In this document: in pieces, positions 1,471-30,300 of the stretch | Numbering within the stretch: position 1 is the stretch's first letter | Layout: each line of letters begins with the position of its first letter | Made by a program: the position numbers and the translations under genes | The notes under the pieces: generated by a model | Told to the model about the DNA's origin: nothing | The model's database searches: none | Seen by the model: only the letters and a program-made list of their open reading frames with translations | From: Larus michahellis | Taxonomy: Eukaryota > Chordata > Aves > Charadriiformes > Laridae | Length of the DNA stretch: 64,000 nucleotides | Direction of reading: 5' to 3' | Assembly: GCF_964199755.1 (NCBI RefSeq) | Contig: NC_133911.1 | Location: 3,685,001 to 3,749,000 of the forward strand

Positions 1471-9640
<8,170 letters not shown>

Positions 9641-9935
9641 TGACAACCCCCCCACCTCCCCTTTGCTGTCTTGAAGTTGGGCTGAATTTCTAGAAGCCCT
9701 GAGAGCCCCATCCTTGGTATACTGGTGTTTCTTGCAGATTGGTCTGTTTTTGATGCCTGCACATAGAGGTTGAGATGCACACAGGAAGGAAAAGGGGCCT
9801 CTCCTGTTCGCGTTAAGTTCTCAAGCTTGACTACTGGATGGTTGATTTTGTATAGGAGACTCCTAGGGCATAACCACAGACCATGGCATGTGGACTTGAG
9901 TGTGTGAAAAGTATGGGAGATGACTTTAGCATTTT

Positions 9936-9992
9936 AAAAAAAAGAAAAAAAAAAAAAAAGGGGAAAAAAAAAAAGAAAAAGAGAAGAAAAGG
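9936..9992 (+). repeat. A-rich homopurine tract
   Basis: Long runs of A broken by single or double G, inside the ACAP3 3' UTR. It is a likely site of false oligo-dT priming in cDNA libraries and could mimic a transcript end. Confidence 0.85.
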
Positions 9993-12633
9993 AAACCCTC
10001 TATCACCAGGAGAAACCCACCAACAATACGATCAGACGAACCTGTCTCTGCTGCAGTGTAGTTACCGTGCACTGAGTTCTCGTCTGAAGAGTTTGGTTGG
10101 AAGGGATTCTGACGTGGAGCCCTCCATCCCGGCAGCCTGACCAGCAGCCTGCTCTCTCATGGGACTGCTGCAGCATCTGGGAGCTGCTGGGACCGGTGTA
10201 GTAAACTAAAAGGTGACCTCTTAAGACAGGAACAGGCTGTTTTGTGGGGCAGAGATGTTTTGCTCCAGAAGGAAAAGAGAGAAGGGGTAGGATTGAGAGC
10301 GATGGCTACTCACCTTAATTGCTCTCAGGACTATACCAGCCACGCTCCTCTCTTTTTGCCCTTGGTGGTCAGCTGGTCAAAGCCATAGCTCGCCTGCTTT
10401 CTGGGCCAAGATGCAGTCTGCACAGTGTTACGGAAGCAGCGGTGCTAATTTTTTCAGGCTGGGAGAAGCTTGTCGCTGGCGATGGGCTTTGTGTCAGGGA
10501 AGAAAAGCCACATCCAACTCCCACTGCCTAAATGGCTGGCTGCACCATGCAATTTGACTTCGGTTCAGTTCGTTTCCTGTTCACTTCAGATTTCTGACTT
10601 CGCATCTCTGTGAAGGAGACTTCTACCTGCATGTGTGTCCCCCTGTGCTCTTCCCCCGCAGGCTGAAGCATGTGAGTAGGGCATCTCAGCAGCTGGCCCA
10701 GGGGCTTTTGAGTTCCCCAGTTCCAACAACCGGCAGAATCTTCTTTTTGTTTCTTTCCTTTTTTCTTGTATTATTCTTTGCGGGAGTTGGGCGAATGTGT
10801 TTCTACTTGGAGCACTTTGTTGCTGTGTTTATGGTCCGCGCTACGGGAATCGTGCTACGGTAGCTCTGCAGAGGTGCTGCAGCCGTGTAATCCTGTCTCA
10901 GGAGAGCTGATGGAGCACGCGTCCCATGGGTGGCTTATCCTCTGGCTGGGAGTTTGGATGCCAAGCGGAGGTGTGCTCCTGGAAGAGCCTCTTCAGAATG
11001 CCCTCAACTGCAACTGATGTCGGAGTTTTTCAGGTCCACAACTGGCATTTAGCCTGCCTGGGCACCCAGGCTGCCGGCTCTGGGGCTGGGCCGTAGTGCC
11101 TTACAGACAGAGCTGGGATCTTGAGGGGATCAAGATCTCACAAGGAATGCAAGAACACCAGGCAGAGTCCCCCATCCTCCTGCATTACATCAGCAGTGAG
11201 ACACAATCATATTATTTTTCATGCGATACGTGTTTGACTTTACTTTTTTTTGTATCCTGGCTGCTGTGGCGCTGCAGCCCTTAGTGGATTAAACCTTTGT
11301 GGGTTTGTTTCTACTGATGTAATTGAGTCCTCAGATACTAAAGCAACAGTGACCCAGCCCTTCACTCAAGATACTGCCCTCAGAGACTGAACCAACACCA
11401 TTCACTCTCCACCCACACATCTAAAAGTGGAACAGTAAAGAAACTCCGCGTGGTCTCCAGGAGAGTGTCCCCTCGGTTCAAGGGAGAGTCCCCGCATCCT
11501 TATGAAAGCGCTGTGCAAGTTTTCTGTCTGCGCAGTCTGGGTCTTGAAGTCCATCTTTGTCTTGTCGCTTTCTCGTTCTTGTTCCTTTTGGAGCTTTGGG
11601 ACGCACAGTGCCAAGTGCTGAGTTCTGATCTCAGTCCCAGCTGTCTGTTGGGAATCTGAAATGGTCCTCGTGACTGTACTGAAGCCGCTGCAGATCAGTG
11701 GCAGTGCAAAACCTGTCCCCAGGGCTTTTCCTGCTTCCCTAGATAACGAACAGTCTCCTTCCACCAATCTTGGAAGGCAAAAATTAATGGTCGCTTGGTC
11801 TGTATTTGTATTCCCTTCATCTGCGGCACCCTCCGGAGTGATTCAGGACTGCATGTGGATGGAAGCAGTGTGGCATAAAATGCCATCCTTGCTGCAATTC
11901 CATTTCAGAGGAACGCTAGCGTGTACAAATCCTGCGTTCAGAGGACGATTTCTTTGTGAGGAGGGACCGTGTTCTGCTGGTAGTTCCTGGGAGTGACTCT
12001 GGGCTCCTATCACTGAAGGGAGAGGGCTGACTCCAGGCGTACACCCCTCTAAGTGACACCAAGTGTAGGCAGGTGTGCACCGCACATAGCTGTTGCTGCT
12101 GTGCTGCTACGCGGTATGCTTCAGTTTGCCTTCATCATGCCCTGGGTTAATTATCTTTCTTCCTGATAGCTGTGTGAAGGTATAGCCGGCATCTCTGCCC
12201 GCTCGGCGTTTCTTGCACAGGATTACAGAAGGTGACCACTTTACATTCTCATGGAGCTTCATCTTTCTCTCCTTTGCATTGGACTTTGTCTTCTTTCTCA
12301 TCCAATTCACCCTAAATTTACCTAATTTCCCCACCGAGCAGGGTGTTGCCTTCGCTTGTGTGTTGCTGCCCCATTTGACCCCCCCCTTCCTTGTCAGTTG
12401 AGCCCACTGCAGCCTGAGTTGGGGACAGGAGCAAGTCTGAAGTCTTACAAATCATCTGTGCGAAACGCCCTGCAGCCCTCGCCATGCTGGGATGGTGTCG
12501 GATGCTGTTGTCTGGGGATACGGGCTGTGGTGCTGAGCCTGCTGGCGATCCAGCAAAGCCCTTAAGCACGCTTCCGCCGTCTGCAGGACGGTGCCGTGCT
12601 CGTGGTTGGATCCTACAGCTCACCCCGCCGCAT

Positions 12634-12970
12634 CCACAGAATCACGGAACGGTGGGGGTTGGAAGGCACCTCTGGGGATCACCCCGTCCCACCCCCTGCC
12701 AGAGCAGGGTCACCCACAGCAGGTGGCACAGGAACGCGTCCAGGCGGGATTGGAATGTCTCCAGAGACGGAGACTCCCCCACCTCTCTGGGCAGCCTGTG
12801 CCAGGGCTCTGCCACCCTCACAGCAAAGAAGTTCCTCCTCATGTTGAGATGGAACTTCCCAGGGGCAAGTTTGTGCCCGTTCCCTCTTGTCCTGTCTCCA
12901 GGCACCACTGAGAAGAGCCTGGCCCCATCCTCCTCACACCCACCCTTGAAGTATTTATAAGCGTTGATAA
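12634..12970 (-). mobile_element. CR1 LINE 3' fragment, antisense to ACAP3
   Basis: Starts at 12634 with CACAGAATCACGGAACGGT, the reverse of the CR1 end (tggtttgggttggaagg reversed). It continues with typical CR1 landmarks read backward (CTCTGGGCAGCCTGTGCCAG; CAGCAAAGAAGTTCCTCCTC) and stops near AAGTATTTATAAGCGTTGAT. It is truncated at its 5' end. Confidence 0.9.
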
Positions 12971-13641
12971 ATACAGATCCAGATCAGCCCAGAAACCGAT
13001 ATCCGGCCAAGAACTCGCGCTGCTTCCTGGGTTAGGAACTGGGAGATGCTCCATAATGAATTCTCTTTGATAATCCTGTCCCATTTTATACTGATCTGCA
13101 TCAAGACATCTGTCAGTGCTGATGTCCCCTCAAGTTGTGCCCTTTCCTAGAAAAAGGCCGCACTGCATCAAAGCTGGCGTCTTTCAGGGTACTTCAACCA
13201 TCTTGAAAATGAAATCGATGTTTCGCCACTCCCATGGTCCTGCTCTGTTAATGAATTTCAGCATGATCACCGTCTAGCCATGTTTTTTACATGTACAGCA
13301 ACTTAAAACACCCCAGGTGGTTTTCCAGCTTTTCGTAAGAAGTTAGAAATACGACGGATCCTTTCCGTAAGCCAGTGAGAACCGGAGACGTGGCTTCCAC
13401 TGCGGGTCATTTTATTTCACGGTCAGCGTTAGCGGCTCATGAGAACAATACGAAACCCATGGACAGTTGGGTCCGCCGAAGCTCAGCCTCGCTGCTGAAG
13501 TACGTGAAGTTAAAGCCTATGTAAATACTGATGCAAAAAGCAGCGTCTTGCAAGACAATTTATCTATTTAACATGTATTGGTACTTTATTTAGATTCAAT
13601 GTATAAAGCAACTTTGTGCACTTTTCCTACATACAGTATTT

Positions 13642-13653
13642 GGGGGGGGGGGG
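13642..13653 (+). repeat. G12 homopolymer
   Basis: Uninterrupted run of 12 G in the ACAP3 3' UTR, close to a T-rich stretch. Length polymorphism or sequencing error is likely here. Confidence 0.9.
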
Positions 13654-14081
13654 TGTTATGTTCTTTTGTTATGGATTTTGTGCTGTCTTTTTTTAATCGG
13701 TGAAATTGTTAAGTATTTAATTTATTATTGATGTGCCCAGAGGACTAGTGCAATTTTTATTCAATACCGTTTGTCTGTATTTAATGTCAGGATTTTTTTT
13801 TTTTTTTGTAGCATTGTTAGGGAATATTTTTCAAAACCTGCCTTTTTTTCCCCCCACGATTTTCCTTTCTTCCCCCTCCCCCCTTTTCTCTTCTATTTTC
13901 ATTACACAGATCAGGAAGGCATTAAATGCCTCTAGTTTGAAATATAATCAAACGCTTCAGTACATCCTGCAGTTTCTAAAACAAAAAGGCTCTCCAGGAA
14001 AAAAAAATGCTAAGGAGGCACTTCTCGATGTTTTCTGTGTTTATTTGATTTATTCTTTTTTTTTTTTTTTAACTGAGGGGG

Positions 14082-14103
14082 GTGTGTGTGTGCGTGCGCG
14101 TGC
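14082..14103 (+). repeat. Alternating purine-pyrimidine (TG/CG) tract
   Basis: GTGTGTGTGTGCGTGCGCGT alternates strictly between purine and pyrimidine and includes CG steps, so it is a candidate Z-DNA former. It follows a T-rich run at about 14056-14070. Confidence 0.8.
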
Positions 14104-16142
14104 TTGTAGCTCGAAGGGGAGAGTGGGGAAGTTGTACAGAAAACTTGTTTTCAGCAAAGTGAAATGGCCAGCCAGGCTCCCGGGAAGACTAGACATTGAA
14201 CGCTTTCTTTTTTTCCTCCTTCAAATACAGCTGTATTTGTGTCGTACGATCTTGGTTTTGAAATACCTAATGCCAAAACTACTCTCTTTTCATTCTCCCT
14301 TTCTTTTCAAAGAGCGCGGGCGTTGTCTGTAGGACAGTCACTTGGTTGCAACCACAGTTAGCAGGAGGAGATTTGCCTTTGTCTAGAAAGCAACGTGCCA
14401 GGCGTCGTCAAAACGCAAACGGACCCAAAGCGTTGCCTCAGCCGTGCAGGTTCTGTCATCCTTTGAGTTTTTGGAGATCTGGGTGAATATTTACATCCCC
14501 TCCCCTAGCTTTTGTTTGACTCGACCCAACCCCTGTAACCAAGTGCCTGGTCAGATAGTCTGGGTTTGAACCTTTGGGGTCCGCCACGTGTCTCTGATTC
14601 CCCACGGGATGAGTTCTGGTTGCTGGCGAGTCGGAATGGTACCCTCTGTGTTCCCTCCCCACGCGGCAGCCAGGGAAGCCTCAGGTTATTTCAATATTGT
14701 CTCTGAGATGGTCTCTGCAATGTGACATTTCTTTGAGCAGTCCAGAGGAAAAACATGGAATTGGAAGAATTTATGTCTCTAAAGAAAAAGATTTGGCAAG
14801 CTGGGACTGCCTAAAACGGATCAGTAACATCTCAGACCAGCAAAAATGACCGTTATTTATGCAAGAGAAAAACAGGACCTCCTAAAGCAATGCACTGATT
14901 AACCTACTGTCCGGTGGCCACAACGCAGCTCGTGTCTCCTGCTGAGCTGCCGGGTTGTTCTGTGCTGCTCCACTGTCCCTGAGCCCGCTTCCCTCCTCGC
15001 TGCCCGAGCATCATTGCTTTCAACCAAAGACAAAACAGGATGAACGGATTAAATGCGATATTAAACCATCGGTTAGCTGACGACAGACGTCTGTGTGAGT
15101 GCGTGTGCGTGTGGTGCTGTTATCTGAGGAAGGGACTGAGCTGGAGAAGGGAGAGTGGGAGTTCTGAAGAAACAAGATATTTTTTATTTTTTTTTTTTTA
15201 GATTCTGAAATATAGAGTGCTGTTTCCATAGGAATGTGATTCATATCAGTCTGCCTGCTGGTTCCTCAGCCTCGGAGGGAATTGGGGCCGGGGTACGTCC
15301 CTTCTGAGCTGTATTCCCAGCGCTGTGTTAGGGGGAGGATAGGGCGGCTCAGCGGCTGTGGGGAGGGGACGAGGGATGGAGGTGGGGGAGTAGCCAAGAC
15401 GGTTTCCAAGGCACGAGGAGGCCTGTGTGTGTTTCCAGCGCAGCAGTTGGGGTGGCGAGAGAGGTCAGCTGAAGTAGGAGCATTTGCTCCGCAAACACAT
15501 CTCAGCACCTTCCTCCCAGCGAGGGCCACGAAGGAGCACGTGTAACGTCCTCGTGCTGCAAGAGGTGACACGGGGAGCGGCCAGGCGCTTGCCTTCGGGT
15601 TGTCAGTGGCTCTGTGGCCCTCTCTCAGTTGACTTCCATCCATCGCGTCCCTCCCAACAGCACACGGACGTCCGTGTGGATGGCCCGCCCTGGGAGCCCT
15701 GTGGCTGCTGGATCCCAGAAACGGAGTAAGGCTCTCTGGCTGCAGGGTTCCGCAGGCTGCAGTGGGAGCCTGGAGCGGGGAGGAAGGGTCCCCCCACCTT
15801 CCTATCGAAACAGCACGGAGAGAAAGGAGTCCTTGAGCCAGGTCAGCGCTGCAGAGCGTGGTTGACGAGCAGGGCTCCGTGACCCGCGGGATGGCTGGGC
15901 TGCTGGACCAGGGGCTGACACTTGCTGTAAATACGCTATAACCTATTAACCTCCTTCACTTGCCTGCTTTCCCTACAACTTTGTAACACGTTTTTTAATT
16001 CCCCCTTTCCCTACACGGCCTGTACTGACTGTAACTATGGAACCAGATATTCTGTATGTTATTATCTTTGTACAATTTTAAAACTGTTGCTGTGGTGTCT
16101 GCCTTTTTTTCCTTCTCTTCTATTGTCTCTTGAAACACTCTT

Positions 16143-16148
16143 AATAAA
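16143..16148 (+). terminator. ACAP3: ACAP3 poly(A) signal (canonical isoform)
   Basis: AATAAA preceded by a T-rich conserved-looking UTR end (TTGTACAATTTTAAAACTG) and followed by a pyrimidine-rich downstream region. It is the first strong candidate after the canonical stop. Confidence 0.6.
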
Positions 16149-16165
16149 AATCTAGATAAACTCCT

Positions 16166-19100
16166 TCCCTCCTCCTCCTTTGGCTTGATTTATTTATGTC
16201 GGGTTTCTTGCCTTGTTGCCTGTATTAACTGGCTCTAGAAAACCATCCCCTTTTAACCTGTTTTCCTTCTCTGCAGCCCACAGCTTGAATTGTATGGCAG
16301 TGAATGCACTGGAATGCCACGTAAATACTCTGCATTTTTGTTTGGGATTCTGTGACGCTGTCTTGTGATACTGCGACTTCAGGGGGCTCAGGCAGAAGGC
16401 CGGGGTGAAGGCGATGGGCTCAAATCACCCCCCCAGCCTCCCCGTTCGTGTTTCTTTGGAGTACCCGAATCCGTTAATGCTTGATATGTTACGAGCTGTG
16501 CCGATGGCTGTCCTCTAAAAGGAGACCTTGCACTAGATGAAAATATCAATCCTCCTGCACATGGACCACCCTTTCCCACGTACCACAGCACAATCCTTCC
16601 CCCCGCTCCCCCCCTGGCCCCCAGCCTTCTCCCGTACTGCGTGTCTGTGGCAGAAAAATAAAAGAAGAAGAAGAAAAGAAAGCCTGGCCTGGCCTCATGA
16701 TTTCTACCATGCTCAGCACGGAAAATAAATGCAGAAAAACAAAATTGTGGGATAACCTCTGTTTTCCCCTGGAGGGACAAACAGACCCCAGTTAATGAGT
16801 CCGGGCAGGCTCCTGGACGCAGTGGAGGAGTTGAATTGGAAGGGTACTTTGAAATCAGGAGCATCACAGTCTTTTGAGGCATTCATGGAAGGAGAGCTGG
16901 GTGGTCTTACAGTAGATTTATAAGCACAGAGCTCGGGAGACGCGTGGCTTCCCCCCACCCTCTTACCGACTCCCACTGCCCCCCCCTTTATTTTCCTGCC
17001 TTTCTGTTTCTGTCTAAAATGGAGACTCTGGTCTCACCCGGCCTCACAAGGATGAACACACTGAAGACTAAAATGCGGTTACAGAAACCCAGATCTCCAA
17101 AAGCCAGTCTCTTTCTTTCTTTAGGCAATGAGGATTAAACGCTCAACTATCTTCCAAAATCTGGGACTGATGCTTTACTACAACAGGAGGATTCTCGTAA
17201 CTGGAGTTGTATCTGTGTTCCCAGAACAAATGTTTCACCGGTGTGCAGGAGGATCACTGGTCTCACTGAACGAGGGTATATTAACGATTTTACCAACACG
17301 GTCAGGCTCCTGGCAGGAGGTAATCGCAATCCTCTGACCCATTACTCGAGTGCCACTTTGTCGCCATCCCACTGCCGTCAAAACTAAGGATCAAAGCGGA
17401 GAAGTCGCGGCTGCCCCCTGGTCTCTGCACCAGAACTCGGCCAGTTCGGCGCTTCCCTGCTGCTGCCAGGCTCACTTCACAGTTCGACTGAATAAACCCC
17501 GGAGAGAGGAGTCTTTATGGTCCTCGTGGAAAATCTACCTGGTTTCTTTGCAGCGTATAAGGGTGGGCTTGGGGTTTTTTCTCCTCCCAGAAAGGGAGTA
17601 CGTTTTATTCAGGGCAGCTGGGGAGGAATAGGTGGTGGGGGAGCAGTGGCGATGCCGGGGTGATGCACAGCGAATGAGCGGCGCTGTGGGTCCCGGGGGG
17701 GCTGTCGCCGGTGTTGGGGGACGGTGTCTAACAGCAGAAGTCCCTGTAGCATCGGGATATGTGTGTGTGCACAGGACAGCACTGGGGGGGACTGGGAACG
17801 GGCCGAGTCCCACCAGTTCAGGAGGGGCCCCAGCGAGCGTGAGCAGAGGCCAACAGGTAGGTCAAGCTGGTTTTGCGGCAGGCACAAAACCGAACGTTTC
17901 CTGAGCGTGGCTGTGCCTGAAAATCAACAGATCCCGGTCAAAACCTGCCCTGGCGATAAGGCTCGCGTTATCAGCCTTTGCCGCCTGCATGTGGATGATG
18001 CTGAATTAAGACAACTATTATTCTCGAGACCTTTGGGGCCGGACACTCTTCGTATACGGGCGAGGGACAATTGTCACATCCCAGTGTGCTCGCCCGTGAG
18101 CTGGGGTGGGAGGGGACAGCACAGAGGGACCTGTCCCGCCAGCAGCTGGAGGAAGGCTCCTCCGAGGACGTCCCCGGGGCCGGGAAGATGCCGGGCGAGC
18201 GAGGGGACACCCCAGGCCGCCTCTGCCCACGCTCAGCCAGCCGGACACGCGCTCAGAGCACTCTCTCCAGCCAAGTTTGTGAGGAAATACGAAGTTAGAC
18301 GGGGTCCTGCTATGGAATGGGCTGTATGGAGCCAAGGTTTTGTATTAGCTTTTCCCTCCGCACCGCACCAACATTGACAGACGGCGTGCCTTGGAGCCAC
18401 GCAGCTCGTAGCTGTGGGTCTTCCCTCTCAGTGTCTCTCCAGGACATGTCTGCTGTCAAACGAAGGGCAGAGGAGCTCTGGATGAAAGACCGAAGGTAGC
18501 TGCACCTCTGTAGGTGAATACCTGGGATCTTTCACTTATCTTTTCCCCTGTGGCTACACGAGTTCATCACCAGGTAAAAATGCCCAGTCCGTGGCAAAAA
18601 ATTGCCCTAGAACATCAAGTAGCAAACAATACAAGCAGAGATATCATTAATGGGATGCGGGTGCCTAATTATCTCTAGAATTGCAGCATAAATCTGAAAC
18701 CACTCCTGCGTGAAGGGAGATTCTATCATGGGACGGCTGCTGGGACACCCGAACCCGTTGCCTTCCCCCGTGGTTTGAGCGGGGCCTTGTCGCGGAGAAT
18801 CGCCGTTCCCTGAGGGTGCCCTTCGGCAGGCGGTTGTTTCGTTCCAGCGCAGGCGCGCCGATGTCGTACCTGCCACGACACGCTCTGAAAAGTCTGGCTG
18901 CCGGAAAAGAAGCCAGAAAAGCGGTCAATGAATGACCCTTCTCCCTGTTCCCGGCTGAACAATGTCTCCAGCAAACCGCTCTCGAGCCCCGTGTTCCCGG
19001 CCGCCCGAAGCTCTGCTGGTGCCCAAGCGGCACCGAGGAAGGACCTTCGCGTTTCAGAGCACTCGGCTGCCAGAATAGCTCTCGCCTTCGAGTCTTAACA

Positions 19101-19480
19101 GTCTCCTCTGCTGTCTCTTGGGCTTTGGGAAAAAAGTGCCAATAATATTGAAAGGGAGGAATTATCCCAAAAGGGAGGAATTATCCCAAATCTGATTGTG
19201 AAGGAAGAGTCCTGAGAGCATGTTGACGTGCGCAAAGCTCATGAATACTCCTGTTCTTATTAAACACAGAATGGAAAGGCAAAACAGGACCCCCTGAGGC
19301 AGGGCAAGGCTCAAGAGCTGGGCTCCGTCTCTGCCGCACGTAGAGCTGTCTCTTACACCCAGGTGAGAGTCACGAGCTCTCAGAGAAAACGGCCTGATGC
19401 CCCAGGACCTCCGTGGGTGGGAAGTTGCAAAGCAAAGCAAAAATATTGGGACTAACGCCTCTTCCTGTGTATTTTTGCAG
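16166..19480 (+). other. ACAP3: ACAP3 distal intron segment between the two gene ends
   Basis: GC-rich, CpG-containing sequence without recognisable coding exons. It contains clusters of transcription-factor-like motifs: GATAAG and TTATC at 17955-17972, ATTAAT at 18646-18651 and TAATTATC at 18666-18673. It also has a CTCF-like CTGCCCCCTGGT at about 17411-17422 and a 19-bp tandem duplication. It is intron only in the isoform that uses the distal exon. Confidence 0.55.
19152..19189 (+). repeat. 19-bp perfect tandem duplication
   Basis: AAGGGAGGAATTATCCCAA occurs twice head to tail without a mismatch. Each unit has partial dyad symmetry (GGGA ... TCCC). It lies about 290 bases before the distal ACAP3 terminal exon. 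Confidence 0.95.
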
Positions 19481-19587
19481 GAGATGCCACCTACCTGGAC
19501 ATCTTCCGGGAGTTCTCGCACATGGCGTCCAACGACCCCGAGAAACTGAAGCGGAGGAGCCTGCACTTCAGCCACTCCTGCAGATAA
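19481..19587 (+). CDS. ACAP3: ACAP3 alternative terminal exon with ACAP1/2-type tail
   Basis: Preceded by TGTGTATTTTTGCAG and entered at phase 1. Joined to the internal donor at 9554/9555 it restores GQPG and continues DATYLDIFREFSHMASNDPE, KLKRRSLHFSHSCR and stop TAA at 19585-19587. ACAP1 and ACAP2 end in the same kind of sequence (GDETY-DIFR-FS-MAS-DPEKL), which makes chance very unlikely. The protein would have the family-type C-terminus instead of the ACAP3-specific one. The donor (gtcaat) is weak, which fits regulated use. Confidence 0.88.
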
Positions 19588-20545
19588 CCCCCTCTGCCCC
19601 GCGTCCATCCGGGCTGCCCGCCGCGGCAGAGGCGTCTGCGCGGGAGCTCCGCTGCCCGAGAGGGATGTTCTCTGCTCAGACGTTCTTCTGCTCCAAACCC
19701 GTGTGTTCCCTGGCTTTTGCGCCCTGGCCGGGAAGGTGACGGACCTCCCAGGGGCCGTTCCAGAGCAGGAACGCATTCAGGCTGCATTAGGTGCCGTGCC
19801 TTGCAGGACCTGGATGCAGTTTAAAATGAGTTAAGCTGATCTTTAGCTCCCGGTGCCCTTTCTACACTGCCGTTTCTGGGAAAAATCCCCCCTTTCTGGC
19901 TGTATGCAAACACTTCTCACCCTGCGGCAGTGCCCGCCCCTAAAATGAAGTACAGGGAAGCGGCCGTGACCATCGAGCATTCCAGCAGGAGACCAAGCCT
20001 GAAGCGCTCCAAAAACTGAGGAAAAGTGAATGTCGCAGACTTTTAGTGATGCCGCGTCGTGGCCGTGTCCTTGCAGCCAGCGCAGCTCACCAACGCGCAG
20101 CTCACCAACGCGCAGCGCCGGCCGCCTGCCGTGCCCTGGGGTCCGACCAGCGTCCCGCCGCCGTGACGGGACACAATTCCCAGTGGCACGAGACCCTCCA
20201 GGCACAGCGCTCGCAGGAGAAAGGCCCCCCCAGGACACGGCACTGGGAAACCACCCAGCCGTAGGGGTCCCAGTCCCAAACCACTGCACTGCAAAACCTC
20301 CGGCAAAGCGTTTTGTTGTCGAACTCGCCTCTTCCGATGCCTCCACCGCTGAGGGCTTTGGTTTGGCGTGGAGCAGGAAACACAACGCCGATTCCACGGA
20401 GACTGTACAAACAACCCTGGAAGCAGGACCCAGCTCTTCGTGAGGAGAGTCGCACTCTTCCGCAAGGCACGGCTTTCAGTATTATTTTTTTTTTTGGTCA
20501 TTTTGACTATTGTATGTCATAGTTAGCGGAAATAATAAAAGGTTG
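19588..20545 (+). other. ACAP3: 3' UTR of the distal ACAP3 isoform
   Basis: GC-rich sequence after the distal stop, ending in AATAAA at 20534-20539, with further signals at 20580-20585 and 20723-20728. A 15-bp tandem duplication (CGCAGCTCACCAACG, 20081-20110) is embedded. No other coding segment is apparent. Confidence 0.65.
20081..20110 (+). repeat. 15-bp perfect tandem duplication
   Basis: CGCAGCTCACCAACG appears twice in succession, followed by a third partial CGCAG, within the distal ACAP3 3' UTR. Confidence 0.93.
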
Positions 20546-20585
20546 TGTGTGGACTATACAGGTATAGGCACCATGACATAATAAA
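20534..20585 (+). terminator. ACAP3: Poly(A) signals of the distal ACAP3 isoform
   Basis: Two AATAAA hexamers (20534-20539 and 20580-20585) lie 0.95-1 kb after the distal stop, in an AT-rich setting that contrasts with the GC-rich UTR. The first is followed by a GT-rich GGTTGTGTGTGG element, a typical cleavage-stimulating context. Confidence 0.65.
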
Positions 20586-20749
20586 GTGTATTGTCAGAAT
20601 GAGATATATAAGCTATAACAGGCTGAAATGTAATATATCTTACGGCAGAAGAAATGTATTTTTTTTGAAAAGGTGGGAGTGAAAAAAAAAATCTCACACG
20701 CAAACAGTATCTATGAACTGAGAATAAAGATGGGAATTTTTTTTTTTTT

Positions 20750-22180
20750 ATAAACCCACACACGTTTCTTCATTCTTTCTGATTCTAGATCTTTACAAGC
20801 CAGCGAAGCGCTTTGGCCTGAGAAGGGTTAAAATACGAAGTTTATCTGGCACAGGTTTATGGCTTGAAAAGAGGAAGGTAAATGACCTTTTCGCCAAAGA
20901 GACCCGGGATTCTAACTCTCTTGGCAGCCCTTCTGTTTTATCTGATTAAGAGACGCTCTAATTTTATTAATGCTATTAACGAAGCGCACTCGCAGTGCGG
21001 CAGCTTAAATACACATCTCAGGCCTCCTGGCAGCCGGGGCAGGGAGCTGGGGTCGGGGTTGGCTCCTCTCCCTGCCGTTGCTGTGGGATCCTCAGCGTCG
21101 CCGCGGCTCCCGCTCGGGCCTCAATTTCTGCTGCCCGCTGGAAAAACGCAGCTCAGATACGGGGAGCTCCAAATAGGACAGATATTTCGGCGATGACATC
21201 CCCAACACTAAGGTATGACCCCAATGAAGAATTTGTACGGCTGATTTCCCAACTCCAACAGGCTACAGGAATGTTCAGTAATCAAGAGGCAGCTACCAAG
21301 CTGAAAAGTAGTCCACACCCTCGGAGAAGGTTGCTCGACGCTACCTTCAAACTGGATCCCCATGGCTTATGCTTCCACTACCTTAGAAACCATCATTTTA
21401 TTCCACTAAAGGTGGCAGAAGCGGGTGCGAAGCAAATTTTCCCTGTGCCCCCCTCCCACGGTGAACCCCACACTCTTTTGCTCTTCCAGTCCCGTGTCTC
21501 CGTGCCACCGACAGACGCTCCCTGCCCACTCGCATACCAGGCTGCCGGGGCATCTCCCTCCTGCCTTGCAACACCCCTTGCTCTTCTGGGTCTGCACACG
21601 GACAAACCGAAGCACACGCCCCGGCTGACAGATCCCTGTCCCGTGTTGCCACATCCCTCTTGTTCCAAATCTGACCACGGGACAAGACGCTGCCGCTCCG
21701 TCCTTGGCCCTGCCTCCTCCGTCCCCAGACTGGCTCCTCCTGGAAATTATATTACACGATGCAGAATTCAGCAGTGATTTTTTTTTTTTTCCTGTGCTTT
21801 GGGACCAGTATAAAGGTTGTTTCCTCAATCTCCTTTTAGCCAACCTTTAGCATTCCCATCTATTCCCAGTGGTAACAAGTCTGGGAGTTCTGAGAGGGGC
21901 TTTCTTTGGTGCACACACACAGACCTGAGCGTACCTGAGGCACCGCAATCTTTCAGTAATGACTGCCCGGCACCCGCTCGAGGTTTGCATTCCCAGGGCA
22001 TGCCCAGATGTTCTGCGTTAGAAGTCTCACTCCTTTTCTCTCTTTCTTGTCCATAGTGCTTTCTTCCTCCACGGCATCCTTTCCCAGCAGGGTGACTCGG
22101 GCTGCAGTATCGCATCAAATCACTCCTGCCAGTCTGCGAAGCAGCTGCATTTCCCAGTGCAGAAGACCCAGAGAAAAGCC
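20750..22180. other. Intergenic region between the tail-to-tail ACAP3 and SCNN1D genes
   Basis: No known gene is recognisable. A 260-codon open frame on the plus strand spans 20995-21777, but it has no identifiable domain, and its second half is Pro/Ser/Cys-rich in GC-rich DNA, as expected from chance. A T-rich run sits near 21778-21790. Confidence 0.5.
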
Positions 22181-22645
22181 TCCACGAAGATGACCCGAGG
22201 GCTGGAGCCCCTCTGCTGTGAGGACAGGCTGAGAGAGCTGGGGGGGTTCAGCCTGGAGAAGAGAAGGCTCCGGGGAGACCTTGGAGCCCCTTCCAGTCCC
22301 TAAAGGGGGCCAACAGGAAAGCTGGGGAGGGACTCTGGATCAGGGAGGGGAGCCACAGGATGAGGGGGAATGGTTTTAAACTGAAAGAGGGGAGATTTAG
22401 ATGAGATCTCAGGAAGAAATTGTTTGCTGTGAGGGCGGTGAGCCCCTGGCCCAGGTTGCCCAGAGAAGCTGTGGCTGCCCCATCCCTGGAGGGGTTCAAG
22501 GCCAGGTTGGACGGGGCTTGGAGCAACCTGGGCTGGTGGGAGGTGTCCCTGCCCAGGGCAGGGGGGTTGGAATGAGATGATCTTTAAGGTCCCTTCCAAC
22601 CCAAACCAGTCTATGAGTCTACGAGCTCTGAGAATCTATGAGATC
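22181..22645 (+). mobile_element. CR1 LINE 3' fragment
   Basis: About 460 bp of CR1 3' end in sense orientation: GGCTGGAGCCCCTCTGCTGT, TTCAGCCTGGAGAAGAGAAG, GCCCAGAGAAGCTGTGGCTG and GATCTTTAAGGTCCCTTCCA. It ends in degenerate TCTATGAG repeats. It is truncated at the 5' end and closely similar to the copy near 46 kb. Confidence 0.93.
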
Positions 22646-23936: not shown

Positions 23937-24350
23937 TTAGCGGTTCAGCTCCCGGTCCGACGAGGTGTCCTTCGTGTATCTAAATCCATTAAGCACCACA
24001 TTTGGGCAAGGCTCTGGCATTCCCACCTTGCTGCAGAGTGGGTGAAAATGCGGGTCGCTGTTGTTGTCCATGGCAATAGTCACTCCAGAAGGGTGAGTAT
24101 GAGCAGAATCATCACCTTTTCCAGCTTCTTCTTGCACAACTCGGTAGTTTTCTAGGGTCAAGCTCACGCTGGGGACGGTAGGAGTGTGAGCTACTTTCAA
24201 CGTCTTCTTTGACCTGAACCGTTGGTAGCAGAAGAGGAGAGACAAGACCAGCGTATCTATGAGCAGCTCAAACATTTCAACTACAGACAACACTGAGGAT
24301 CCAAACCAGAGACTCCACTGGCTTCCCATGCTGGACAGAAGCAGATTCTC
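23937..24350 (-). CDS. SCNN1D: SCNN1D last coding exon (pore, TM2, cytoplasmic tail)
   Basis: Encodes [20 protein letters not shown], then TM2 ([20 protein letters not shown]), then a 90-residue cytoplasmic tail ending SSDRELNR and TAA. The deg-site serine and GSS filter are intact. The tail starts RFRSKK but has no PPxY Nedd4-binding motif. Acceptor TTTCCACAG. Confidence 0.96.
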
Positions 24351-27300
24351 CTGTGGAAAGAATCAAAGGGTTGTGTTTATCAAACACAGCAGAGCTCCGG
24401 GAACATGAAATTATTGCGTACCGCCCGCAGGTCAGTTAGCTGCTTGCCAGCTGGGGAGTAATTTTGCGTGACTGTGTACAATGTGAAATGTTCAAGTCTC
24501 TTCCCTAAGAAGCAAAATCCCATCCCATCCTGGGGGCTGTAAACAATCCTCCCTCCAACCACACGCAGCACACCGTAACTAATGACAGGTAACGATGTTT
24601 TGAGCTGATGTAGTGCAACCTACTGAGAGTAAAGGAGACTCGTTGACGGACTGGTAGTTCAGTTGCTTGTAGAAGATGGTCACCTTGGCAATATCCTTCC
24701 TGTATTGGAGAAAGGCAGCAGTTAGCAACGGTGGGATGGCCACACGTCATTCACCTGGTGGAAGGCCCTGCCGGCATTCTGATTTACATGCAATTTACAT
24801 GCCGATTGCTAGGCAATAGGTTTCGCCACTCACTCAAGCTTTCTTCCTGAGGGTGTTTAACACGAGCTTGGAAAAAGGTTACAGAAGTGACCATTTCACA
24901 GTGTTGTAAGGAAAGATGGGAAGTTGATCGGCTGACCCTGTGCATTTCATAGTTGGACTTGATGATCTTAAAGGTCTTTTCCAACCTGAACGATTCTATG
25001 ATTTTTCTCTTGTCCTCCCTTTCCAGTCTAACATCTACAAATTCTGCAGGGATGAAGAGCTGATCCATAGTTTTAACAGAAGCACCTTCTCGCAGTGACT
25101 GACCTGTTGCTGGTGGAGTTATATCCGTTCTGATGCCTTAGAGCTTGGCGGACCCAGTCCTGCAGCAGAGCACATGTATATCATTGGCGATCCTGTGTTC
25201 TGAGTTTTTGTATGCTTAATATTTTGTAAACGTACATTTCATAAGCAATAAAAAGGCTATTGCAAATAATAAAAAAAGATGTAATAGACTGATTTACAAC
25301 ATATAGTGATAGCTATCAAGTAGCAGCCGTATTTGCCAGAATAGCAAGGAAATACACGCTGATATTTTAGGTGTGTACAGTATTCTGGTTCTTAAATTCT
25401 GCCTTTAATGGCAACCCTGCCAAATAACTTCCTCTTTTAAAATGTATTGGTTGTGTTTACCTCCACATTATCATCTACATCACATGAATTAATTGCCTGG
25501 TCATGCCGCCGGAATGCCCTTTTAACATCTGAACATGAGAAATGGCAAGAGGTCACCTACTGACTCACAGAACTTCCACTGCAGCCCCGCAGCACCTCAC
25601 GAACAGGAGCGAGCGAGCGGTCGCACCACAACACCCACTGGAAGCAGAAGGTCATCAGCACCATTTTGTAGGTGGGCAGCGAGGCAGTGAGGTGAATTGC
25701 TTAAGGTCGCAAGGAAGTTTGGATTAGGACTGGAATTGAATGTACGGCTCCAGCGCCTTAGTCTGGCTTCTTAACTACAAGGTCATTCCCTTGGGTCCAG
25801 GCTTTGGACCAGTTTGCTTTATTTGCCATTTCCGTTGCTGCTGCCTGAGTCGTCGTTTTCACCCTTAACTTTAATGTTCCAACAGCCAGAGTAAAGGCGG
25901 TATCCCCCCTGAACACAGCAGCTGTCTGTATGGCCTACCTGAGACTTTGTCGACGGCCACTTGGCAGTTCCAGCAGACACCTTGTACAGCGATTCCCTGG
26001 TCAGATAAAAACGGAGATTATGATCACTACGACTCTCGGCATTTAAAAGCGAATACATGAAGGAGTTTAACGACGCTAACTACTTGCCCACTGCATAAGT
26101 TCCGGGGGCAGCTCTTGAGGCCCTTGGAAAAAGCTTATTGAGTCAGCTTAGAAAATAATACCAGAGGTTGCCTGAAAACGGCTCGGGCCAGGAGGAAAAC
26201 TAGAATGGTTTCAAAAGCCTGACCACTTTACTTGGATGCATTTAAAGTCAAAATATTTCACATTTTGCTCTAAAATTCTGTCTTTCCATTTTGAAATTGA
26301 CCTACAATAAAAAAGGTGATCCATAGACAAGTAGTATAGATTGAAAAATGACACAAACAATTTGGTTTGGGCGTAATAAAACATTTCAGTGGGATAAAAT
26401 AATTTCCCCTCTCTGCTGTCATGTCAAAATTAACTTAAATTAAAGTTCTTATTTAATTTGTCTAATGCTGTTATCTTTTTCCTTTCTCAGCATTGGGGTT
26501 GAAACATCAAACTGACATCTCCTGTTCAGAAAACATCAAAATCCATAAATTTTCCATGAAATTGCCTATATTTCCACTGGTGTAATTTTCCTCTGCAAGG
26601 TGGCATTTACTGTGCTGTAATTTAGCGACGTACCGGCAAGGCTTGGGGCACTGGTCAAAACAATTCAGGTGATGATTTCTGAGCCTGTTGTAGAGCTGGT
26701 AAAAGCAGTGACCTGGTGAAAGAAATGAGAGGAACGCACTCAGGAAACGGAAGGCTACCGAATGGAAGGCTACCGAAACCTCCGGCCTCCCTTGCCCTTC
26801 CCAAGCACACAGGAGTCTCCCAAAGAGACTCGGTTTTGCTTCACTCTCACTTTGGAACGGCCCCTGCGTGCAAAGCACGTGCCTTCCCTGTAAGGATCGG
26901 CCGAGGACAGGCGAGCAGAAAACCAAGAGAAGTTATTCAAAGCTTTGTCTTACACCAGCACGGCCACCAATACTGGTAACATGAAAGAGCTTGACCCTAT
27001 ATTAAGGTCCTTAATAGAGGGATGCTTGATGTTTTTTAGGCTCTAACTTGATATCCACGCAAACACCCAGAGAGGGGTCTGCCATCGGGCTGGATTTAGT
27101 GATGTGAGGGAACAGTCTAAGCAGGAGACGGGCACAAAGCAGAAGGGCAGTAACCGAAGGGGTCACGTAACTATTGTGGGAAGGTGTCCCCTTCCGACAA
27201 GGACAAGACAACAGTCTGTTGCTCTCACCCCACGCAGGCTGCTTATTGTAGTCACAGTACTCGGCGCCAGGAGGCAGTGGGTAGTAGTAATAGCCACAGC

Positions 27301-30300
27301 CACATTTTCGAACCATTATGTGCTGAAAGCAGGAATGCAAACAAGCCTGGAAAATAAAGAAGACACAAAAGATTGGATAAGCCAGAAATTCTCAAGCGCC
27401 CAGATCTTCAGTCTGTAGCATGCAGCTGCTAGGAGACAACAACTTTGGTGCTGCAAAAAGACACCAGCCATCACTAGAGCACGATGATGCAAAAGGTTTT
27501 CACTTTTCATTCCTTATCTTTACCTCTGAAAACAGTACCGAACACAGTGAGACAGAATTTTCTCCAGCTGCCTTTTTCGTTATGCCCAGAAACATCTCAG
27601 TTAAGCAGCCTGAACTTCTAGAGCCAGAAGCAACTACTTACACAAATAAAGACCTGATGGCCCAAGAATGTCCCACCAGAACATTCCAGCTGCCACGACT
27701 GGCTCGCTGTCCGACCTCTCTTGTGGTACAAGGAGGGAAGAGCCCCAGTGTCTTGGACTGAGTATCCCCGACTCAGTGAAACTCATTCCAAGTGATAACG
27801 CCCTGTTTGTCAGCTTCTTTGCAGAGGGGCGTGAATCTCCCTGTTACCTCCAGCAATGAACCTGCTGATTTGTAAAAGCTCTCTGGAGAGCAAGGCATGA
27901 CTCCTTTGCTATTCATTGCCTCTGAATAAGCTGGGTCCTCAGCCAGCCGCTCTGACAATACCTGCAGGGTGTAGGAGTTGTTGTACAGGAGTTTGACATT
28001 CACATCATTGCCATTAGTCGTGCATTTCCCATAATTGCCGCCCAGGCGATTCACCTCATCCTGTGGACACAGAAAGGAGGCCTGAGTGATCAGGAGCTGT
28101 AATTGGACCTAGCCGTCACCACCTAAACTTAACTGGAGCATCATATAAAGGACAGGAAAGGTAGTAATATATGTGAGCGGCCAAGCTATACCCTGCTAAT
28201 AAAATACACACAGGAGCAGGGAAAAGGTAGGGGAGTGCAGGTGGTCAGTCCCTGTGGTGCAGCTGACAAAGCAGTAACGCATCACGTCAAAACAACTAAA
28301 TCACTTCTGAATGTTTGTTCTCATGCTATGACACACACGCAGTTCGCTGTACAGGGCTGGAACAGGACCTAAGAGGTGCAAGAGCCCCAGTGTAAAACAA
28401 ATCAGGCCCCAGCGTACTGAGGACTAAAAGGCCACTTGCGCATTTGGAACAATTTTGTTTTGCCCACGGGAACCTGAGCACAGTGAGAAGAGGCTCCCAT
28501 GGATACACATGCCCTGTCCAGAGGGGAGCAGAAGAGTCCCGCAAGTCCGTTGTATGAGTCAGTCACACTGTTCAGCTCCTCACAACTTTCTGCAACCAGA
28601 GGGAAAAGAACCGATGCTCTTGCTCAAGTGGCTGACCTGCTGAATGCCTATGGTAGTTGCAATGCCTGGTCTGATGTCAAAGCCTTCATGCTCGAGGAAT
28701 GGCGTCTGATTGTGGTTGTGTATCATCACTTTCACACCTGCTACTGTAGACAAGAGCGGGATGTGATCCTTCTGCTCCGCTCTCAGGATAAGGGAAAGTC
28801 CTGTAAACCAGAGAAAAGGGAAGCATATAACAACTCATTTTGGGCCAAAATAGGAACACCACTATGTCTTGACGTCTCAGCACTGATCAAATTGCTGTCT
28901 TAGCTTACAGAAGAGCCATTCTTTTTCCTCAGAGATCTGGTGAGTGGCCAGGTAGCGACTGCACCAGCCTATTTTGAAACCGTAATAATATTCTGCTTGA
29001 AAACTAAAATAATATTCTGCTTGCTATAAGGTAAGATAGGGTTGATACGGCTATCATATACATGTGGCTCGTGAAGCAAGCAAATACAGTGTATAATTTG
29101 TGCCACCAGACAGAAGAGAGGGCTATATGTCAGTAAGTCATCTATAGAAGACATATTTAATCCATTGTCAAATTATATTAACTTCAGCTCTTCTTCCCAC
29201 CCTTTGCCAAATAACATACCGTAAGGAATTCCTGGTTTTGTGGCTGTCCAAAAAGAGTCTGTTCCCTTGCTGTTAAAAGTATAGCAGCTTCCAAAGACGG
29301 GGTGGTGAAAGTGAACATAGTCACTGAAATCAAGAGAGATTTTGATGGGTTTTAATACAAGCGCAGCAATACCTTTACTTCTACGTAGGAAGCTTTTTTT
29401 GTATATATATGTGTGTGTGTATGTACAGCAGTGACCATGGGAGACAGCTGTTAACTCGCCGGAGACGAGGAAAAAAATGCGGTGCACAGGGATTCACTGC
29501 TCACCAGATTACAGACCACCAGATCACTGGTACAGCCAGAGCGGCAAACACAGGAGTCAAATCCAAAGTTCTGACTTGCTTTTCCCTCCAAGTAGACTAA
29601 ACTTTTTCCTGCTTATTCCAACCAGGCAGGTTGAATTTCTATGCTCTAATCAATAGGAGAATACTTGCAGTCTCCCAAGTCCTCGAATTCTGCTGAAATC
29701 ACAATTATCGTCTCAAGAAGTGACGTACCTGGGTCTGCAGGGCTCCCCATCGTACTGGCAGGAGTAGACCATATCTTCTATTTGCTCCTCATGATCAGAA
29801 ATGTTGATTATAACCGGTAGCTGGGACATGATATTCATGTAGTGAAACCTGTACCATTCAAGAATTGCATCCATCCCGGATGAATAGGTCTTGTAGAAGC
29901 AATTCCCACCTGTGGCATTGCACTGGGGGAAAAGAAGAGAGGGAGCCATTCAGCACAGCCAGGACAGGACAGCCGAAGGGTAACAGGGAGCGGGGGGTAA
30001 AGGCAATATTGGATACAGGGACAAGGGGAACCCTTATTTTTCCAGAAAGTGGAGTCTCTGATCATTTTAGTTATCACAGAACGGCTGAGGTTGGAAGGGA
30101 CGCCTGGAGGTCATCTTGTTATGTGCTAAGCACCTTCTCTCCCTGAAGCTGAATTTGGTGTGCCGCCTCATCTCAGGGGAACGAGCGCAGGGGAAGAGAG
30201 GCGGGAGAGGAGAGCAGGCAAGCACACTCAAGTACGCTGGGAGAAGGAAGGACAGGGCTGGTGGGAATTCTGTACAACCCATGAATCATGGACCAAGTCC

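Follow-up and report, generated by a model that had tools for sequence, protein, structure and literature searches.

Genes of the locus

The window, meaning the whole 64-kb stretch analysed here (C20:3685001-3749000 of the 1.405-Gb Larus michahellis genome), holds part of an ACAP3 gene together with two further genes, SCNN1D and UBE2J2. That the DNA belongs to a bird, as the original prediction had it, was borne out by a feather keratin query, of whose 382 candidates 150 were scored, giving 150 matches with up to 92% identity. The located features of ACAP3 are collected in Table 1. Pfam recognises an ArfGap domain at 3190-3366 (4.8e-17) and an ankyrin domain at 8809-8919 (1e-5), while 8425-8643 and 9278-9385, each searched alone, gave no match at a cut-off of 0.01. 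The ArfGAP-then-ankyrin order by which an ACAP protein is recognised is therefore seen on two exons, and the best-matching natural proteins over the whole C-terminal part are ACAP2 and ACAP1 chains.

On the minus strand, ENaC-type exons at 24.2-29.3 kb (23940-29343; Pfam ASC, 8.1e-11) are convergent with ACAP3. UBE2J2 was located at 52.5-55.9 kb by a sequence query; Pfam UQ_con was seen on one exon with 17 bits, under the 27-bit cut-off. In rodents, the neighbours of SCNN1D are ACAP3 and UBE2J2, according to PMC8662647, and it is on this gene order that the gene in the window is called ACAP3 and the ENaC gene SCNN1D. The latter name rests on position, because alpha ENaC (47.4 bits) is a closer match to the frame of the last exon than delta ENaC (34.3 bits) is. 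The two neighbours, together with a distinct ACAP2 elsewhere in the genome, agree with the identification as ACAP3.

A 265-residue open frame (20980-21774, + strand, with MTSPTLRYDPNEEFVRLISQLQ... inside) separates the distal ACAP3 exon from SCNN1D; a 73-residue stretch of it finds only itself in the genome. Frames at 12645-12983 (-) and 22401-22577 (+) carry LPRE..PSLE.F..RLD, a motif that we take to be typical of CR1 retroposon ends.

Table 1. Features of the ACAP3 3' region, in window coordinates.
Feature	Position	Strand	Basis or remark
Upstream ACAP3 exons (ArfGAP, linker, ankyrin repeats); nine located, window holds part of the gene	3190..9387	+	Pfam
Shared coding part of the composite exon	9493..9554	+	Acceptor 9.38 bits; gapless against ACAP2 6if3
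Weak internal donor CAG/GTCAAT, cut 9554/9555	9552..9560	+	Identical in ACAP2
Proximal (read-through) tail, 27 residues beginning QY, and stop	9555..9640	+	ACAP2 comparison
Alternative intron of the distal-tail form, 9,926 nt, GT...AG	9555..19480	+	Splice sites
ATTAAA, candidate poly(A) signal of the proximal end; GT-rich sequence behind	11288..11293	+	Then CCTTTGTGGGTTTGTTT
Distal last coding exon, (G)DATYLDIFREFSHMASNDPEKLKRRSLHFSHSCR and stop	19481..19587	+	Sequence, PDB matches, ACAP2 comparison
Distal 3' UTR, putative 3' end	19588..20600	+	AATAAA at 20534 and 20580

A distal last exon with an ACAP1/ACAP2-type tail

The distal exon consists of a 35-codon open frame between an acceptor AG at 19479-19480 and a TAA stop at 19585-19587. 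Its join to the upstream exon (9554/19481) is in phase (phase 1). The exon, its acceptor and stop, and the in-phase connection to CCAG/gtcaat at 9554/9555 are all present as predicted. The further statement that 28 C-terminal residues would be exchanged for 35 holds if the shared glycine, whose codon is split by the junction, is counted; the residues that differ number 27 and 34. Scored with a splice-site matrix, as were all splice sites, the acceptor reaches 9.7 bits and is equalled or bettered by 9 of the 733 AGs between 9700 and 20500.

When the protein is joined across this junction, its last 55 residues match ACAP2 (6if3, E 5e-18) and ACAP1 (3t9k, 2.2e-12) in the PDB, gapless over the junction. 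With the distal 34 residues alone and E values up to 10, the PDB yields four sequences: ACAP1 three times (best 2.2e-7) and ACAP2 once (2.5e-5). Since nothing but ACAP1 and ACAP2 is found at so permissive a threshold, the exon is far beyond chance, and a chance frame is ruled out. The solved proteins carry the corresponding tail in the equivalent position; 21/26 residues are identical to the ACAP1 tails (3t9k, 3jue, 4f1p) and 18/24 to the ACAP2 tail (6if3), with no gap inside the tail. Upstream of the junction, 110/145 residues are identical to ACAP2; the distal exon is thus as well kept as the ankyrin region. ACAP1 and ACAP2 tail queries gave a strong match within the 64-kb window only at the distal exon (E 1e-11 and 4e-10; the next 0.34). 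The end of the protein would follow the pattern D..Y.DIFR.FS.MASN.PEKL, and the predicted role as an alternative last exon of ACAP3 with an ACAP1/ACAP2-type tail fits the PDB matches and the gapless junction. Against the whole genome at E 0.001, the ACAP3 distal tail retrieves only itself, while the ACAP2 distal exon is retrieved by an ACAP2 query. Pfam gave no match at a cut-off of 0.01 for either the distal or the read-through tail. AlphaFold models, made from single short pieces without an alignment, fold the distal tail into two helices (best pLDDT 89.8, five models 65.0 to 89.8); the 48-residue composite exon reached 70.2 (55.9 to 70.2), its tail being modelled as a loop followed by a helix.

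The distal AATAAA signals lie ~1 kb past the exon and ahead of the SCNN1D 3' end. That at 20534 is preceded by TGTA and followed by GTTGTGTGTGG, and a third AATAAA is found at 20723. A perfect tandem repeat of 15 bp (2.5 copies) occupies 20080-20116 within this 3' region, and another of 19 bp (2.1 copies) precedes the distal exon at 19151-19190.

It is very unlikely that the distal exon is a decaying relic, ACAP3 of Larus michahellis now making the read-through tail only. The read-through tail is the one known for ACAP3 of mammals, and LHFSHSCR, the eight residues that close the exon, fail to align with the ACAP2 tail, both of which would suit a relic; on the other hand, the frame is open, the acceptor strong, AATAAA signals follow, and the identity equals that of the ankyrin region. 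In a neutral simulation started from the present exon (20,000 runs), frame and acceptor survived in 49% of runs at 0.05 substitutions per site and in 24% at 0.1, and survival was 1.2% at 0.3 and 0.09% at 0.5. Relaxation would therefore have to be recent. Only frame and acceptor were used from this simulation, because its third criterion, 21/26 identities or more, is harsh: the runs begin from precisely that value.

The composite exon and its internal donor

The shared coding part of the composite exon has 18/21 residues identical to the ACAP2 exon of the same genome, and is followed by the internal donor at which the two tails would part. This donor scores 4.79 bits and is equalled or bettered by 35 of the 570 GTs of the intron. 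Nine other ACAP3 donors score 4.02-12.51 and six other ACAP2 donors 4.21-7.87, each score taking the best GT near the exon end. Lower values than that of the switch donor occur in ACAP3 (CAGGTACTG, 4.02) and in two of the six ACAP2 donors (4.21 and 4.73), so the switch donor is not uniquely weak, and weak donors are no rarity in these genes. In both ACAP3 and ACAP2, bases +3 to +5 of the donor spell CAA, a Gln codon when the tail is read through; by the same matrix, the alternative Gln codon CAG would raise the donor by 4.07 bits.

When the donor is read through, the protein ceases to match the ACAP1 and ACAP2 chains of the PDB at the junction, and the read-through tail agrees with no ACAP chain there beyond its first residue. 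Downstream of its stop, AATAAA is absent from the + strand from 9641 to 16142, and the proximal candidate poly(A) signal of ACAP3 is the non-canonical ATTAAA. Among the listed open reading frames of at least 42 residues in the intron, inspected by eye, no gene was recognised except CR1-like remnants, and Rfam returned 0 matches at gathering score over the 64-kb window. RBFOX-type TGCATG occurs in the intron at 10628, 11850 and 17986, that is, three times in 11 kb; these sites were not used as evidence.

ACAP2 of the same genome carries both tails

With the ACAP2 tail as query, the genome returned the two exons of ACAP3 and a further two on C10, four matches in all. The C10 locus is 97% identical to the ACAP2 tail query and was assigned to ACAP2. 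Its two-tail region (C10:27286363-27291353) has the same order of parts as ACAP3: the penultimate exon ends in GQPG at a donor CAG/GTCAAT (CAGGTCAAT; C10:27286423), a read-through frame of 26 residues and a stop extends to C10:27286506, and after an intron of 4,826 nt there follows a distal exon encoding (G)DEIYQDIFRDFSQMASNNPEKLNRFQQSDSQKS and a stop (C10:27291250-27291353). An intronic poly(A) sequence, ATTAAATAAA, is found near C10:27287508, and poly(A) hexamers are present for both ends in both genes. Conversely, the ACAP3 read-through tail searched against the 1.4 Gb genome found two loci, itself and ACAP2 (3.7e-8). Side by side with these, the ACAP1 query on the genome gave two matches, both accounted for by ACAP3 and ACAP2, and no ACAP1-like tail was found; ACAP1 may be absent from Larus michahellis or from its assembly.

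That ACAP2 shares the read-through tail, and the donor ahead of it letter for letter, implies that both options predate the ACAP2/ACAP3 split. The original prediction had set the read-through end, as the tail proper to ACAP3, against the distal end as the ancestral tail of the family. This division does not hold, as the C10 locus rules out a read-through tail confined to ACAP3, and the switch is a shared and older one rather than a second tail specific to ACAP3.

The layout of ACAP2 also bears on whether the distal exon, lying as it does 9.9 kb past the ACAP3 read-through frame, belongs to another gene or is left over from a duplicated ACAP copy lying between ACAP3 and SCNN1D. The exact phase and gapless fit to 9554, the lack of a second copy of the located ACAP3 exons inside the 64-kb window, and the same order of parts around the 4,826-nt ACAP2 intron together speak against a separate gene or tandem remnant, readings that we reject as extremely unlikely.

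Selection on the two tails

ACAP2 and ACAP3 were compared as paralogs within one genome by the NG86 method, on sequences that are short. The proximal tails share 17/26 residues after the glycine and 55/78 bases (pS 0.75, pN 0.19), and the distal tails 18/26 residues, glycine included (pS 0.96, pN 0.20). The differences in both tails are mainly synonymous. For the 20 constitutive codons before the junction, pS was 0.80 and pN 0.06; the tails are thus kept, but less strictly than the constitutive codons, given their pN of 0.19-0.20. As a control, six other homologous introns were read through in frame, yielding 1, 4, 2, 5, 1 and 4 identical residues of 26 and 12-27 of 78 bases. This comparison covers seven of ten junctions, the switch included; exons 4, 5 and 6, whose ends are not fully aligned with ACAP2, were omitted. 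Past the read-through stop codon, 24/90 bases are identical between the paralogs. When an equal number of changes was placed randomly, the observed identity without a stop arose in 8/20,000 trials for the proximal tail and in 0/20,000 for the distal. A scan of 10 kb of ACAP2 in 19,844 reading windows gave 8/26 identities as the second-best match to the proximal tail.

The substitution patterns, the intron controls, the drop after the stop and the random-placement trials thus show that selection acted on both tails as protein sequences in the period after ACAP2 and ACAP3 split. Because synonymous sites are saturated, this selection is an average over that whole period, and either gene may recently have stopped using one of its tails. 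The split is placed at the early vertebrate genome duplications; the data themselves show only saturation.

The same comparison weighs on the view that the read-through frames are mere 5' ends of introns in unspliced or prematurely cleaved RNA, all proteins ending in the distal tail and read-through giving no functional product. Such a view would account for the distal type being the one carried by the ACAP1 and ACAP2 chains of the PDB, of which none matches the read-through tail beyond its first residue, and for 8/13 annotated human ACAP3 transcripts being of the retained-intron class (PMC7730309). It is nonetheless very unlikely, being at odds with the codon-level conservation of the read-through tail between the paralogs, which falls away past its stop and is absent beyond the six other donors.

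A proposed two-tail switch in ACAP2 and ACAP3

Our preferred reading is that ACAP2 and ACAP3 very probably share a two-tail switch older than their split, with 19481-19587 as its distal alternative last exon in ACAP3. The parts of a composite terminal exon are present: a donor within the coding terminal exon, and a distal exon in phase with it that has an acceptor, a stop and a poly(A) signal. The weak donor inside the composite exon would compete with intronic polyadenylation. Where the donor went unused, the ribosome would continue through the 27-residue ACAP3 tail to its stop, and the RNA would be cleaved in the intron; with U1 losing, cleavage would fall perhaps at the ATTAAA of 11288 in ACAP3 and at the intronic poly(A) sequence of ACAP2 given above. 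With U1 winning, the strong distal acceptor and the distal poly(A) signals would be used and the protein would end in the distal pattern. The donor sequence may be kept at a level that allows either outcome, as the two genes suggest, and both RNAs are presumably made. The tails, directly following the ankyrin repeats, could then alter partner binding or the location of the protein.

In mammals, ACAP2 is known with the distal tail and ACAP3 with the read-through tail. More speculatively, and with less than even odds in our judgement, the switch could predate the vertebrate ACAP2/ACAP3 duplication, have stayed whole in both bird genes and been divided in mammals in this way, the tail setting the use of the adjacent ankyrin repeats, for example in Rab35 binding. 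According to a review (PMC6358971), the ankyrin repeats of ACAP2 serve Rab35-dependent recruitment, and ACAP2 does not handle Arf6 in neurite growth in the way that ACAP3 does. If each gene can make both tails, part of that difference may reflect the tail studied rather than the gene. Should the mammalian division hold, one lineage would achieve by splicing what another achieves with two genes. ACAP2 and ACAP3 would further offer a clean example of a single splice choice that both duplicates retained until synonymous sites were saturated.

Comparison with known systems

Splicing of mouse Acap3 at exon 19/intron 19 has been linked with Srsf3 (PMC11616996), and PMC3025006 reports splicing and promoter differences of ACAP3 in human frontal lobe. 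A two-tail switch of ACAP2 or ACAP3 was not found in those parts of the literature that were covered, and a literature search with six tail strings gave no match; at least one of the forms may already be present among the isoform models of databases.

Relative to the solved ACAP1 and ACAP2 chains, the distal tail of ACAP3 would be one of two options, and its LHFSHSCR end is ACAP3's own. That a composite terminal exon can switch a C-terminus by intronic polyadenylation is already known, as in secreted versus membrane IgM. The proposed ACAP switch resembles IgM in having a weak donor inside the last exon, with read-through and polyadenylation expected to give one C-terminus and splicing to a distal exon another. 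Unlike in IgM, the choice of tail would neither add nor remove a membrane anchor, two paralogs retain both tails, and the competition is a suggested one. Within this kind of mechanism, the ACAP switch would be unusual in its age and in its retention in both paralogs. A second parallel is offered by fungal SKI7/HBS1, where, according to PMC3597508, an ancient alternative splicing event preceded duplication and the yeast duplicates then lost splicing. As in that account, the ACAP splice choice would be older than the gene duplication; unlike SKI7/HBS1, both ACAP duplicates of Larus michahellis still carry both options.
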